From contig JADLGB010000031.1 in NCBI GenBank assembly GCA_020849535.1, forward strand, positions 1 through 64,000: DNA of 64,000 bases, given 5' to 3'. This stretch comes from Candidatus Hydrogenedentota bacterium. GTDB taxonomy: Bacteria > Hydrogenedentota > Hydrogenedentia > Hydrogenedentales > SLHB01. A program made the position numbers and the translations under genes. The notes under the pieces were generated by a model, which was not told the origin of the DNA, made no database searches, and worked only from the letters and a program-made list of their open reading frames with translations. This document shows, one piece after another, positions 6,367 through 50,087 of the stretch. The stretch's first letter is position 1, and the number at the start of each line of letters is the position of its first letter.

Positions 6367-8364
6367 ATGGACATATTCCGCGAATTGGTGGACGGCCAAG
6401 GCGATCCGGTGGTATGCCTTCGCGACGATGGATGCGTGACATACATCAATGCGGCGGGCGTGGCCGTGGTGACCGCCGCGCCCTTGCAGACAGTCAAGCA
6501 GGATATCAAGATTCCTTCCGAGTTGCTGGCGGAAATCCGGAGGCTCCAGGCGGAGGATCATGAGGGCATGGCGGGATACGTCAGCCTGAGGACCCCCGCC
6601 GGTCTCAGGCATTTTGAAGTTCGCGTCAAGCGCTCGCCGGGACCAGATGGTGCGGAATGGCTGGTCCTTCTCCGGAATGTGACGGAACTCCGCATCGCCC
6701 AACGGGCCTCGCAGTACCGCAGCGCATTTGCGAAACTGGTTTCCGAAGTGGCTTCCCGCTTCGCCGGTGCGGGTCTGGACGAGTTCGACGACGCTATCGA
6801 GGAGTCCTTGGAGCGCATCGGCATCTTCGCGCAAGCGGACGCGTCCTATCTGTTTCAATTCTCGGAGCGCGGCGATCGCATGTCGGTGACCCACTCCTGG
6901 TCGTCGGGGCGCGTCGCTCCGTTGCCGGAGCAATTGCACGATATCGACGCGCAGACGATGACGTGGTGGATGTCCCGGCTGCACCGGGCGGAAGTGGTGG
7001 CGCTTTCCTCGTTAACGGAGCTTCCCGAGGAAGCCCAGGTGGAGCGCCGCATCCTGGCGGCCCAGGGAGTCGGCTCGCTCGTTGACGTGCCGCTCACCTA
7101 CAAGGGAGTCCCGATTGGATTCATGGGTCTGAGTTCCGCGGAGGAAGGACGTCACTGGAGCCAGGACGAGGTCCATCTGTTGAGCATCGTGGGGCAGGTG
7201 TTCACCAATGCGCTCCAGCATAAACGGGCCGAGGAGGCACTGGCGCAGGAGCGAAACCTGCTGCGGACTCTTATCGACAACCTGCCCGATTACATCTACG
7301 CAAAAGACGCGGAGAGCCGCTTCATCCTGAACAACAGCGCCCACCTGCGTCTGCTTCGCGCCAAGAGCCCCGAGGACGTGGCGGGAAAGAGCGACTACGA
7401 CATGTTTCCACGGGAATTGGCGAGCCAGTACTACGAGGATGAGCAAGAGATCATCCGATCGGGACATCCGCTTGTGAACCGGGAAGAGTCCGTCATCACG
7501 GAAGAAGGGGAACGGCGTTGGCTGCTCACGACGAAGGTTCCCTTGTGTGACGCGGATGGGGTTCCGGTAGGCCTCGTGGGCATGAGCCGCGACATCACGG
7601 GGCGCAAGCAGATGGCCGAAGCGCTGGAGACCCACGCGCGCCTGTTGGAGCAGGCCAACGCGGACTTGCGGATGCGCAACCAGGAGCTGGACGAGTTTAC
7701 CTACATCGCAAGCCACGACCTGCAGGAGCCGCTACGGAAGCTGGTGTCGTTCACGGACGCGCTGCAACACGACATGAAGGCAGGCGACGCAGCGGAAATC
7801 CGGAGGGACCTCGACATTATCGCATCGGCGGCCCAACGCATGCAGCGGCTGGTCCGGGACCTGTTGGCGTTGTCCCGGTCCGGGAGGCAGGCCATGGAAT
7901 GGGAACTGGTCGATCTCAACGAGTGTGTCGATCTGGCGCTGGATGCGCTCGAAATCCGGATGGGGGAGGAAAAGGCCGAGTTCGCTAAAGAGAAGCTGCC
8001 CACGGTTTTGGGAGACCGGACACTCTTGACACAGTTGTTCCAGAACCTGATTGGAAACGCATTGAAGTTCCATGGTCCGGACGCGCCGCAGGTCAGATTG
8101 ACCGCGGAGGAAGGAGACGACGGGTGGGTCCTGGGGGTCCAGGACAACGGGATCGGGATCAAGCAGGAATACTCGGAGCAGATATTCGCTCCGTTCAAGC
8201 GGCTCCATGGCAGGGGGTCGTATGAAGGGACTGGCATTGGACTGGCGATCTGCCGTAAGATAGTGGAGCGGCATGGGGGAGTGATCTGGGTAGAGTCTGA
8301 ACCCGGGAAAGGGGCGCATTTCAAATTCTCACTGCCTCAACGTGAAGCGGAGCAGTCTCCATGA
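6367..8364 (+). CDS. PAS-GAF-PAS sensor histidine kinase
   Basis: A 665-residue soluble sensor kinase. The ATG at 6367 has GGAGGG 11 nt upstream; the frame is open further left but runs into the inverted repeat, so the longer form is unlikely. An N-terminal PAS-like domain (about 1-110) is followed by a GAF domain (about 120-285), a second PAS domain (about 295-415, LIDNLPDYIYAKDAESRF), the dimerisation/phosphoacceptor domain (YIASHDLQEPLRK, His450) and the ATPase domain (LFQNLIGNALKFH, VQDNGIGI, YEGTGIGLAICRKIVE). There are no membrane segments, so the signal is cytoplasmic or diffusible. The SHDLQEP phosphoacceptor box is the phytochrome-like type that usually partners with Rcp1-like regulators, and such a regulator follows with a 4-nt overlap. 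Confidence 0.93.
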   Translation: MDIFRELVDGQGDPVVCLRDDGCVTYINAAGVAVVTAAPLQTVKQDIKIPSELLAEIRRLQAEDHEGMAGYVSLRTPAGLRHFEVRVKRSPGPDGAEWLVLLRNVTELRIAQRASQYRSAFAKLVSEVASRFAGAGLDEFDDAIEESLERIGIFAQADASYLFQFSERGDRMSVTHSWSSGRVAPLPEQLHDIDAQTMTWWMSRLHRAEVVALSSLTELPEEAQVERRILAAQGVGSLVDVPLTYKGVPIGFMGLSSAEEGRHWSQDEVHLLSIVGQVFTNALQHKRAEEALAQERNLLRTLIDNLPDYIYAKDAESRFILNNSAHLRLLRAKSPEDVAGKSDYDMFPRELASQYYEDEQEIIRSGHPLVNREESVITEEGERRWLLTTKVPLCDADGVPVGLVGMSRDITGRKQMAEALETHARLLEQANADLRMRNQELDEFTYIASHDLQEPLRKLVSFTDALQHDMKAGDAAEIRRDLDIIASAAQRMQRLVRDLLALSRSGRQAMEWELVDLNECVDLALDALEIRMGEEKAEFAKEKLPTVLGDRTLLTQLFQNLIGNALKFHGPDAPQVRLTAEEGDDGWVLGVQDNGIGIKQEYSEQIFAPFKRLHGRGSYEGTGIGLAICRKIVERHGGVIWVESEPGKGAHFKFSLPQREAEQSP

Positions 8365-47752: not shown

Positions 47753-48780
47753 ATCACTATGCCCTTGCGCGCGAGCCTTTCCATATTGCGACTACGCCGG
47801 GGCTCTTCTTCATGGGCAAGAACCACCGGGAAGCCCTGGCGATGATGATGTATGGCGTGCAGAAGCGCCTCGGGTTCATCGTCCTCACGGGAGAAGTGGG
47901 GACGGGCAAGACAACCATATTACGCGCGTATCTCGATCATGTGCAGCGCACGAACGTCCGCTCGATCCTGCTGTTCAACCCGGAACTCGATTTCCGCGAG
48001 CTGCTCGTGCACATACTTCAGACGCTTGGCGTCGATGGCCGCGGCAAAGACGAGCGCTGGCTGCTTCACCATGTCGCCAACGCGCTGATTGCCGAACGAA
48101 AGGCCGGGCGCTTGGTCGTCCTTATTGTTGACGAGGCGCACCATCTCCCGGTGGAAACGCTTCGCAGAATGCATCTCTTGTCCAACATGGAGTCGCGGGA
48201 AGGAAAACTGCTGCAAGTCATATTTGTCGGGCAGCCTGAATTCGACGCACTACTGCACGATGATCGGTTGCGCCAGATCCGCCAGCGCACCGCGGTCCGG
48301 TTCCACCTGAAGCCGCTGACCCCGCGCGAAAGCATCGAGTACATCCGGTTCCGGCTGGAATGGGCCGGAGGAAAGCCCGAGACGTGTTTCACACGGGGAG
48401 CGATCCGCACCATCGTCAAAGAGGCGGGCGGTTTCCCGCGCATGCTCAATGTGCTGTGCGACAACGCGCTCGTCACGGGGATGGGGCACGGTATGAAACC
48501 GGTTCCGCGGCGCGTGGCGCGCGAGGTGCTTCGCGATTTTCGCACCCCGCGGCGGCGCAGCTTCCGGTGGTGGACCTGGAGCCGCGCGGCGGCCGTTGCG
48601 TGCGCCGTGGCGGGGGCGGCCTATCTCAGCCTGCTTCATCCACACGCGCCGCAGACCGATCGCACGGCGCAGTCTTCCGTTTTGCAGACCAGTCCGGGTG
48701 TGCCCCTGGACGCTCAACAGCTTTCCGAGGATCGCGCCGCGATGGCGACGATCCAAGATTGGCGGGAGCTTGTTCGATGA
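47743..48780 (+). CDS. ExeA/XrtA-type AAA ATPase of the exopolysaccharide system
   Basis: A 345-residue ATPase of the general-secretion ExeA-like family that accompanies XrtA/PEP-CTERM-type exopolysaccharide loci. AAGGAG lies 9 nt before the ATG, which overlaps the previous gene by 10 nt. It begins YLNHYALAREPFHIATTP, then Walker A TGEVGTGKTTILR, Walker B VVLIVDEAHHLP and FVGQPEFDALL. A single membrane helix (AAAVACAVAGAAYLSLL) near residue 280 anchors it, with a short tail outside. Its energy role in export or assembly is not understood. No exosortase gene is in this window. Confidence 0.88.
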   Translation: MYLNHYALAREPFHIATTPGLFFMGKNHREALAMMMYGVQKRLGFIVLTGEVGTGKTTILRAYLDHVQRTNVRSILLFNPELDFRELLVHILQTLGVDGRGKDERWLLHHVANALIAERKAGRLVVLIVDEAHHLPVETLRRMHLLSNMESREGKLLQVIFVGQPEFDALLHDDRLRQIRQRTAVRFHLKPLTPRESIEYIRFRLEWAGGKPETCFTRGAIRTIVKEAGGFPRMLNVLCDNALVTGMGHGMKPVPRRVAREVLRDFRTPRRRSFRWWTWSRAAAVACAVAGAAYLSLLHPHAPQTDRTAQSSVLQTSPGVPLDAQQLSEDRAAMATIQDWRELVR

Positions 48781-49502
48781 GCAAGATCTACGAAGCGCTA
48801 CAACTGAATGAAGTGGAGTTTCCGGAAAGTAGCGGTGCGGCCGTCATCGCGGGTGTCCCCATGGGGACTCCCTCTCGATCGTTCGAAGAGAAGCTGCTGG
48901 CCCTGTACCGGCGTATCGAAGGCTCACTGAATGTGGAAGGCGCCAAGGTTGTCTCCATCGTGGGCATGCAGTCCATGAAGCAAGGCTTCACCTACACCTA
49001 TGGGCTGGCGAGACTGGCGTCGGTCCACCTCAAACAGCGGGTCCTGGTGTTGTGCACGTGCCAGTCGGGTACCAGCCAGCACCTCCTTCGGCAGCCGACG
49101 CCATCGGCCGGCTGGGAGAAGGCGGTGTTTGACGACAAGCCGCTGTCCGAGGCGATCCTTCAAGTGTCGAAGCCTCCCATTTCGGTAAGCCAGTTGAATG
49201 CGGCGCCGGACTCGCTGGCGGGGCTGATGGCGTCCCCACGGACGCTGGATCATCTCCGGCGCCTGCGCAAGCGATACGACCTGATCCTGATCGATTCCCG
49301 GCCTCTACCGGACGGATTGGACGCCGCGCTGATCGCGCCGCTGGCCGACGGCACGGTGCTCATTGTGGATGCGGGGGTCGCGCGATGGCAGGTCGTGCGC
49401 AACGCGGTGGAGCAGATTGTGTCGCAACAGGGTACCTTCCTGGGCGTGGTTCTGAACAAGCGTCGTCATTACATTCCGAGCTTTATTTACCAGAGATTGT
49501 AA
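48777..49502 (+). CDS. CpsD/BY-kinase-like protein with degenerate nucleotide-binding motifs
   Basis: A 241-residue protein placed and built like the tyrosine-kinase domain that partners a chain-length protein. It starts MSKIYEAL, as such kinases do, and contains a P-loop-fold core. The Walker A position reads VGMQSMKQGFTYT with no GK(S/T). The Walker A' position, normally LLIDADLR, reads VLCTCQSGT. Only the Walker B strand YDLILIDSRPLPDG is close to normal. A Tyr-cluster tail is reduced to YIPSFIYQRL. It should not be an active kinase and may be a structural regulator of Wzz. The ATG overlaps the previous stop (ATGA). Confidence 0.8.
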   Translation: MSKIYEALQLNEVEFPESSGAAVIAGVPMGTPSRSFEEKLLALYRRIEGSLNVEGAKVVSIVGMQSMKQGFTYTYGLARLASVHLKQRVLVLCTCQSGTSQHLLRQPTPSAGWEKAVFDDKPLSEAILQVSKPPISVSQLNAAPDSLAGLMASPRTLDHLRRLRKRYDLILIDSRPLPDGLDAALIAPLADGTVLIVDAGVARWQVVRNAVEQIVSQQGTFLGVVLNKRRHYIPSFIYQRL

Positions 49503-49562: not shown

Positions 49563-50087
49563 ATGAGCAGTCAAATGCAGAAGCGAAACCGGACCGCGCT
49601 GTTGCGGTTGTTTTCCCGCAGCCGCGACGCTTGGACCGGTTCGACCCATGCGGCACTTCTGTCGCGCGAAGAGTTTGAAGAGCAGTTGGCCATCGAGCGC
49701 GCGCGAGTCGAGCGCTCCGGTTACGCGTTTTCGGTGATTGTGTTCACGATCCACGGAAGCGGCGGCAGCGAAGAGGCCGCGCGCGCCGAGCGGGCGCTCA
49801 TGGCGGCCCTGGTGGAGCGGACGCGTCTGTGTGACTCGAAAGGCTGGCATGGGAAGCACCCGGCCGTGATCCTGCCGTACACATCGAAAGCGGACGCGGC
49901 GAATCTAATCAACCCCATCGATATGCTGTTTCGCAAGCATTATGTTGAAGAAGGACATCCCGTTGTGCCGGGGCCGCGCTTGTCGTTTGTGCTCTATGGG
50001 TATCCAGACGAACGCGGCACCGCCGGCACCAGTGGAGGATCCGCCGGCCCAGACAGCAGCCCAGCCGGCGGCCAAACGACGAGGTAA
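49563..50087 (+). CDS. Degenerate GGDEF-like domain protein
   Basis: A 174-residue soluble protein. The ATG at 49563 has AAGAGG upstream. The central part follows the pattern of a diguanylate cyclase domain: LLSREEFEEQLAIERARVER, a hydrophobic strand (FSVIVFTI), a helix, then WHGKHPAVILPYTSKADA where an active enzyme has RxGGDEFxxxLP. The catalytic GG(D/E)EF is lost, so c-di-GMP synthesis is very unlikely. It may bind a nucleotide or the adjacent sugar transferase, whose gene starts 6 nt after its stop. The C-terminal tail is Gly/Ser/Pro-rich. The assignment rests on pattern and position, not on a database match. Confidence 0.6.
   Translation: MSSQMQKRNRTALLRLFSRSRDAWTGSTHAALLSREEFEEQLAIERARVERSGYAFSVIVFTIHGSGGSEEAARAERALMAALVERTRLCDSKGWHGKHPAVILPYTSKADAANLINPIDMLFRKHYVEEGHPVVPGPRLSFVLYGYPDERGTAGTSGGSAGPDSSPAGGQTTR

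Follow-up and report, generated by a model that had tools for sequence, protein, structure and literature searches.

Degenerate GGDEF proteins that regulate polysaccharide synthesis are represented by PelD, PssE, YdaK and BcsE (PMC7112168, PMC4125290, PMC7064775). PelD is needed for polymer synthesis and carries the helix arginine R402/R395 (PMC7112168). c-di-GMP binding has been measured for PssE (PMC4125290), and YdaK engages in an I-site-dependent interaction (PMC7064775). Control of initiating phosphoglycosyl transferases (PGTs) has been described in other forms. In Myxococcus xanthus, the single receiver domain EpsW activates the PGT EpsZ; direct contact is backed by proximity labelling, and dimer stabilisation has been proposed from models (PMC12802240). 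WbaP dimerises through its DUF, to which uridine nucleotides are reported to bind, and the full-length enzyme is inhibited by UMP (PMC10942596). In general, how Wzx/Wzy pathways are controlled after translation is described as incompletely understood; for synthase-dependent pathways, c-di-GMP is a well-known regulator (PMC12802240). Regulators of polysaccharide synthesis with a dead GGDEF are already established, and the tie to an initiating PGT described here is apparently new, although a search is no proof of absence: in the literature searched, which lay mostly outside the subscription journals, we found no description of a degenerate GGDEF dedicated to such an enzyme.

Genomic context of the 174-aa protein

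The window analysed here is a stretch of 64,000 nt from a Candidatus Hydrogenedentota bacterium (contig JADLGB010000031.1). Between 45279 and 50810, a single strand encodes, in this order, a polysaccharide export protein, a chain-length determinant, an XrtA-associated ATPase homologue, a BY-kinase homologue, a protein of 174 aa and a PGT. These gene identities are backed by family scans, except for that of the 174-aa protein. Downstream of the PGT, the genes appear to encode flippase-like and Wzy/ligase-like proteins, glycosyltransferases and UDP-sugar enzymes, and the surroundings look like a Wzx/Wzy-type exopolysaccharide locus. The open reading frame of the 174-aa protein begins with ATG and ends with a stop codon 6 nt ahead of the PGT start, and both its coordinates and this gap agree with an earlier note on the same DNA. 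The domain core spans approximately residues 33-150, flanked by disordered and variable N- and C-termini. The principal features are listed in Table 1.

Table 1. Coordinates of the 174-aa protein, its motifs and its neighbouring genes in the window.
Feature	Position	Strand	Basis
BY-kinase homologue upstream (putative pseudokinase)	48777..49502	+	family scans, synteny, alignment
Apparently dead GGDEF-domain protein, 174 aa	49563..50087	+	ORF, dN/dS, profile to PDB, AlphaFold and Foldseek
ERARVERS segment, residues 45-52	49695..49718	+	R46 and R51 family-invariant (alignments)
RLCD, residues 88-91, candidate I-site motif RxxD	49824..49835	+	alignments with true GGDEFs
WHGKHP, residues 95-100, in place of RYGG[DE]EF	49845..49862	+	alignments
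YGYP, residues 145-148; Y147 and P148 invariant	49995..50006	+	alignments
Partner short PGT, 238 aa	50094..50810	+	PF02397 E=6.7e-68, N-terminus, tree

The BY-kinase homologue of the window and its orthologues (L002-L013, L016 and L079) show no recognisable Walker A or A' residues in any of the 10 aligned loci. Without these residues we read it as a pseudokinase, and its sequence suggests a BY pseudokinase similar to EcpK.

Constraint and distribution

A scan of genome contigs with the single protein returned one match only, a same-genus orthologue of 84% identity on JADLCA010000007.1 (Ca. Hydrogenedentota isolate SJ204). Against this orthologue, dN/dS is 0.12 for the whole 174-aa gene, 0.066 for its domain core and 0.046 for the adjacent PGT; the C-terminal tail is almost free of constraint (0.64 in the same pair). 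On account of these low values the open reading frame counts as a real gene, and it is under purifying selection.

The GGDEF-like family comprises 15 members in 13 genomes, distributed over several families of the order. With the family profile, members score at least 128 bits and all other sequences at most 52, a gap that is partly an artefact, as the profile was built from the members themselves, 14 of which had already been found with the single query. Eleven columns are invariant across members that, apart from the same-genus copy, share 25-50% identity with the query. No match occurred among the plasmids or viral contigs scanned, and the tree of GGDEF-like domains was poorly resolved.

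GGDEF homology and predicted fold

In Pfam and NCBIfam scans the single 174-aa sequence matched no family, and given this blank Pfam result routine annotation would miss it as a GGDEF protein; PF00990 is matched weakly by five of the 15 family members. The profile of all 15 matches true GGDEF domains of the phylum. Compared with the PDB, its significant matches are diguanylate cyclases only, led by 3ign (E=2.9e-9) and followed by 5euh (8e-8) and WspR entries (~1e-4). The AlphaFold model has a high-confidence core (pLDDT above 90), with ten-residue means of 85-97 across residues 31-130, and a Foldseek search of the PDB with this model returned GGDEF proteins in all of the top 50 places (best E=7.4e-7). 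The GGDEF matches reach a TM of ~0.5-0.6 over the query and include the c-di-GMP-bound GcbC domain. Profile matches and predicted fold together indicate that the protein belongs to the GGDEF superfamily by descent. The diguanylate cyclase pattern that the earlier note had recognised is thereby borne out, and the profile and structure comparison it had proposed gave a predicted GGDEF structure, not an unrelated one.

We also observed a second, distinct family of degenerate GGDEF-like proteins, which are very short (~135 aa) and match PF00990 weakly, at L094:811-1215, at L097 ~7600-8030 and in L113-L126. About half of the genomes of the phylum carry this family; its neighbour is often a sigma-54 activator, and in L117 and L123 a PGT gene lies within ~100 nt of it.

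Loss of the catalytic site

We aligned the 15 family members with 22 GGDEF domains from within the phylum. In all 15 members the guanine-binding N and D, present in all 22 true GGDEFs, are deleted, and the equally universal lysine (22/22) is lost; with these residues the classical GTP pocket is gone. The first-strand metal Asp, likewise found in 22 of 22 true GGDEFs, is kept in five members. No member retains the GG[DE]EF signature, RYGG[DE]EF being mostly changed to [WY]xG-x-[RH], and in 12 of the 15, the query included, the signature loop has one residue fewer than that of true GGDEFs. The string WHGKHPAVILP, which the earlier note had placed at the signature, indeed occupies residues 95-105, and the alignments with true GGDEFs confirm the replacement. 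In turn, R46, G94 and P148 are invariant in this family but not in true GGDEFs; F56 and L79 are fixed too, and W95 is mostly conserved. With the residues of catalysis gone in every member, the 174-aa protein should not make c-di-GMP.

As an observation on gene order, two putatively dead enzymes, the BY pseudokinase and the GGDEF-like protein, stand side by side ahead of the PGT.

A partly retained I-site

R48 is kept in 14 of 15 members and aligns with R313 of PleD, in the secondary I-site. The third I-site arginine position, presumably the helix arginine R402/R395 of PelD judging from the alignment, is a proline in the query and an arginine in two of 15 members, compared with 18 of 22 true GGDEFs. 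R88 and D91 (RxxD) are invariant in 15/15, five residues ahead of the lost signature, an arrangement also described for the c-di-GMP receptor PssE (PMC4125290). Their equivalents are invariant in true GGDEFs too, so the retention of RxxD may be structural. With the RxxD half kept and the third arginine mostly lost, the I-site is half convincing at the level of sequence. A c-di-GMP signal is plausible in this bacterium, since its own genome carries true GGDEF domains (nine matches over the domain and one partial); as the ligand of the 174-aa protein, c-di-GMP is a tentative candidate, at somewhat less than even chances.

Genetic linkage with the initiating PGT

In 13 of the 15 loci the PGT directly follows as the next downstream gene, and a BY-kinase homologue lies upstream in 12. 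In the fourteenth (L012) the GGDEF-like domain and the PGT catalytic domain share one frame (PF02397 at residues 171-358), in the same order in which DUF and catalytic domain follow each other in large PGTs; an AlphaFold model of this fusion (pTM 0.44) did not place the domains relative to each other. Conservation beside the transferase, on which the earlier note had let its proposal depend, is thus found across most of the family. The L094 copy has no PGT in the 2.1 kb that remain of its short contig, where the next gene is a 645-aa open frame with Ig-like repeats, as read from its sequence.

In this one genome, very large proteins with many Ig-like repeats (L094:1963-3899 and L097:9427-14391) follow the GGDEF-like gene or the PGT paired with it; they are possibly surface proteins.

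The partner PGTs measure ~238-290 aa in the cases with a clear start. These short forms are devoid of the N-terminal part of large PGTs, which consists of a TM bundle and the PF13727 DUF. Full-length PGT matches were counted by hand as short (frames of at most 300 aa) or large (at least 440 aa), with one contig-edge frame left out. Among the matches listed, a GGDEF-like neighbour accompanies 12 of 15 short and none of 102 large PGTs (Fisher p=6e-14, or p=4e-12 when four low-scoring short PGTs are added), p-values that overstate the independent evidence because the loci are related by descent. In the PGT tree, the partners form two clades, each within a 100/99 branch, that are not sisters, so the association spans two PGT lineages. 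One short PGT of the main clade, in the otherwise syntenic locus L079, has no GGDEF-like neighbour; the ~425 nt between pseudokinase and PGT (L079:3288-3713), the site of the GGDEF-like gene in relatives, contain no clear gene and no recognisable GGDEF-like remnant.

Two further PGT arrangements were seen. L092:1527-4349 (also L093) is a 940-aa open frame with two Bac_transf and two CoA_binding_3 stretches, apparently a tandemly duplicated large PGT. In L081:1664-3811, L082:2637-5153 and L083:958-3209, the gene right after a short PGT is a frame of 461-498 aa in which a second PGT domain is represented by its C-terminal part only.

Proposed role and alternatives

Because its catalytic site is lost and it is fused to the transferase in one relative, the 174-aa protein is probably a regulator of the first polymer step. 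We postulate, as a reading that is somewhat favoured, that the stand-alone dead GGDEF serves the adjacent short initiating PGT as an accessory subunit with a regulatory function and replaces the missing DUF. This agrees with the earlier note, which had suggested an accessory or nucleotide-responsive regulator of polymer initiation, a suggestion that the predicted structure and the gene order support. In large PGTs an N-terminal DUF handles regulation and dimerisation; the dead GGDEF protein would stand in for it and would bind the PGT on its cytosolic side, and the ligand or dimer state of the GGDEF protein would then set the rate of sugar-1-phosphate transfer to undecaprenyl phosphate. As its input, c-di-GMP at the retained RxxD site would be the most likely. 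It would thus represent an exchanged regulatory module, covalent in L012 and separate elsewhere. GGDEF domains of known cyclases act as dimers, a habit that suits the role of a DUF replacement. Within this proposal, physical binding to the PGT is likely, and an effect on PGT activity or assembly is reasonably probable. The wider proposition, that the phylum has swapped the built-in regulatory domain of its PGTs for a detachable dead cyclase, with c-di-GMP gating the first committed Wzx/Wzy step, is speculative and on present evidence less likely than not.

Several other readings were weighed. An active diguanylate cyclase with an unusual signature would agree with the predicted GGDEF fold, and enzymes with altered signatures can work, an active AGDEF enzyme being one example (PMC3974145); yet the family has lost metal, lysine and guanine-binding positions that all 22 true GGDEFs share, most of them in every one of its 15 members, and on these losses we rejected this reading as having practically no probability. 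A decaying or neutral gene that merely sits in the operon might likewise be catalytically dead and missing from the syntenic L079 locus, but would hardly keep a core dN/dS of 0.066, 11 invariant columns at 25-50% identity to the query, a presence in several families of the order and one fusion to the PGT; this reading is very improbable and was rejected on dN/dS.

The main competitor is a ligand-free scaffold, in which the GGDEF fold serves only to dimerise or stabilise the truncated PGT, or to link it with the BY pseudokinase and the chain-length complex. Loss of the active site and, mostly, of the third I-site arginine would fit such a role, as would the new invariant residues R46, G94 and P148, absent from true GGDEFs, and the neighbouring dead enzyme, of a kind for which scaffold functions have been proposed (PMC12004946). 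RxxD in 15/15 and R48 in 14/15 are more than a pure scaffold needs, however, and we consider it rather unlikely. That the remodelled active-site cleft senses another nucleotide (GTP, ppGpp, UMP or a UDP-sugar) is less probable still: the functionally analogous WbaP DUF responds to UMP/UDP/UTP (PMC10942596), and the remodelled signature loop has an invariant G94 and a mostly conserved W95, but no member has kept the lysine or the guanine-binding N and D.

Significance

If the proposed regulatory subunit is real, a degenerate GGDEF at the initiating PGT would bring c-di-GMP logic to the step at which undecaprenyl phosphate, a scarce carrier, is committed. Since the DUF of large PGTs appears to be exchanged here for another module, these loci would also offer a natural experiment on the purpose of that DUF, and the fused and split forms are ready-made constructs for testing.

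Comparison with known systems

The 174-aa protein resembles PelD of P. aeruginosa and B. cereus in being an apparently dead GGDEF with RxxD encoded within a polysaccharide operon; PelD differs by its TM helices and GAF domain, serves a synthase-type Pel system and keeps the third arginine (R402/R395) that is mostly lost in the GGDEF-like family (PMC7112168). PssE of Listeria (PMC4125290) and YdaK of B. subtilis (PMC7064775) are also degenerate GGDEFs with RxxD in EPS operons. There, c-di-GMP binding is measured (PssE) or an interaction depends on the I-site (YdaK), whereas the 174-aa protein is known from sequence and predicted fold; YdaK, unlike the present protein, has four TM helices, and neither is described, in the text consulted, as the partner of an initiating PGT. 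EpsW of M. xanthus (PMC12802240), a small single-domain signalling protein encoded in the eps locus, acts on the initiating PGT, as is proposed here for the 174-aa protein. It differs in being a phosphorylated receiver domain, and its target EpsZ is a large PGT that has a DUF of its own, in place of the dead GGDEF and short PGT seen here. The PF13727 DUF of large PGTs such as WbaP belongs to a different family and is a covalent part of the enzyme, preceded by four TM helices; it is nevertheless, as is the GGDEF-like domain in L012, a non-catalytic domain N-terminal to the catalytic domain (PMC10942596).
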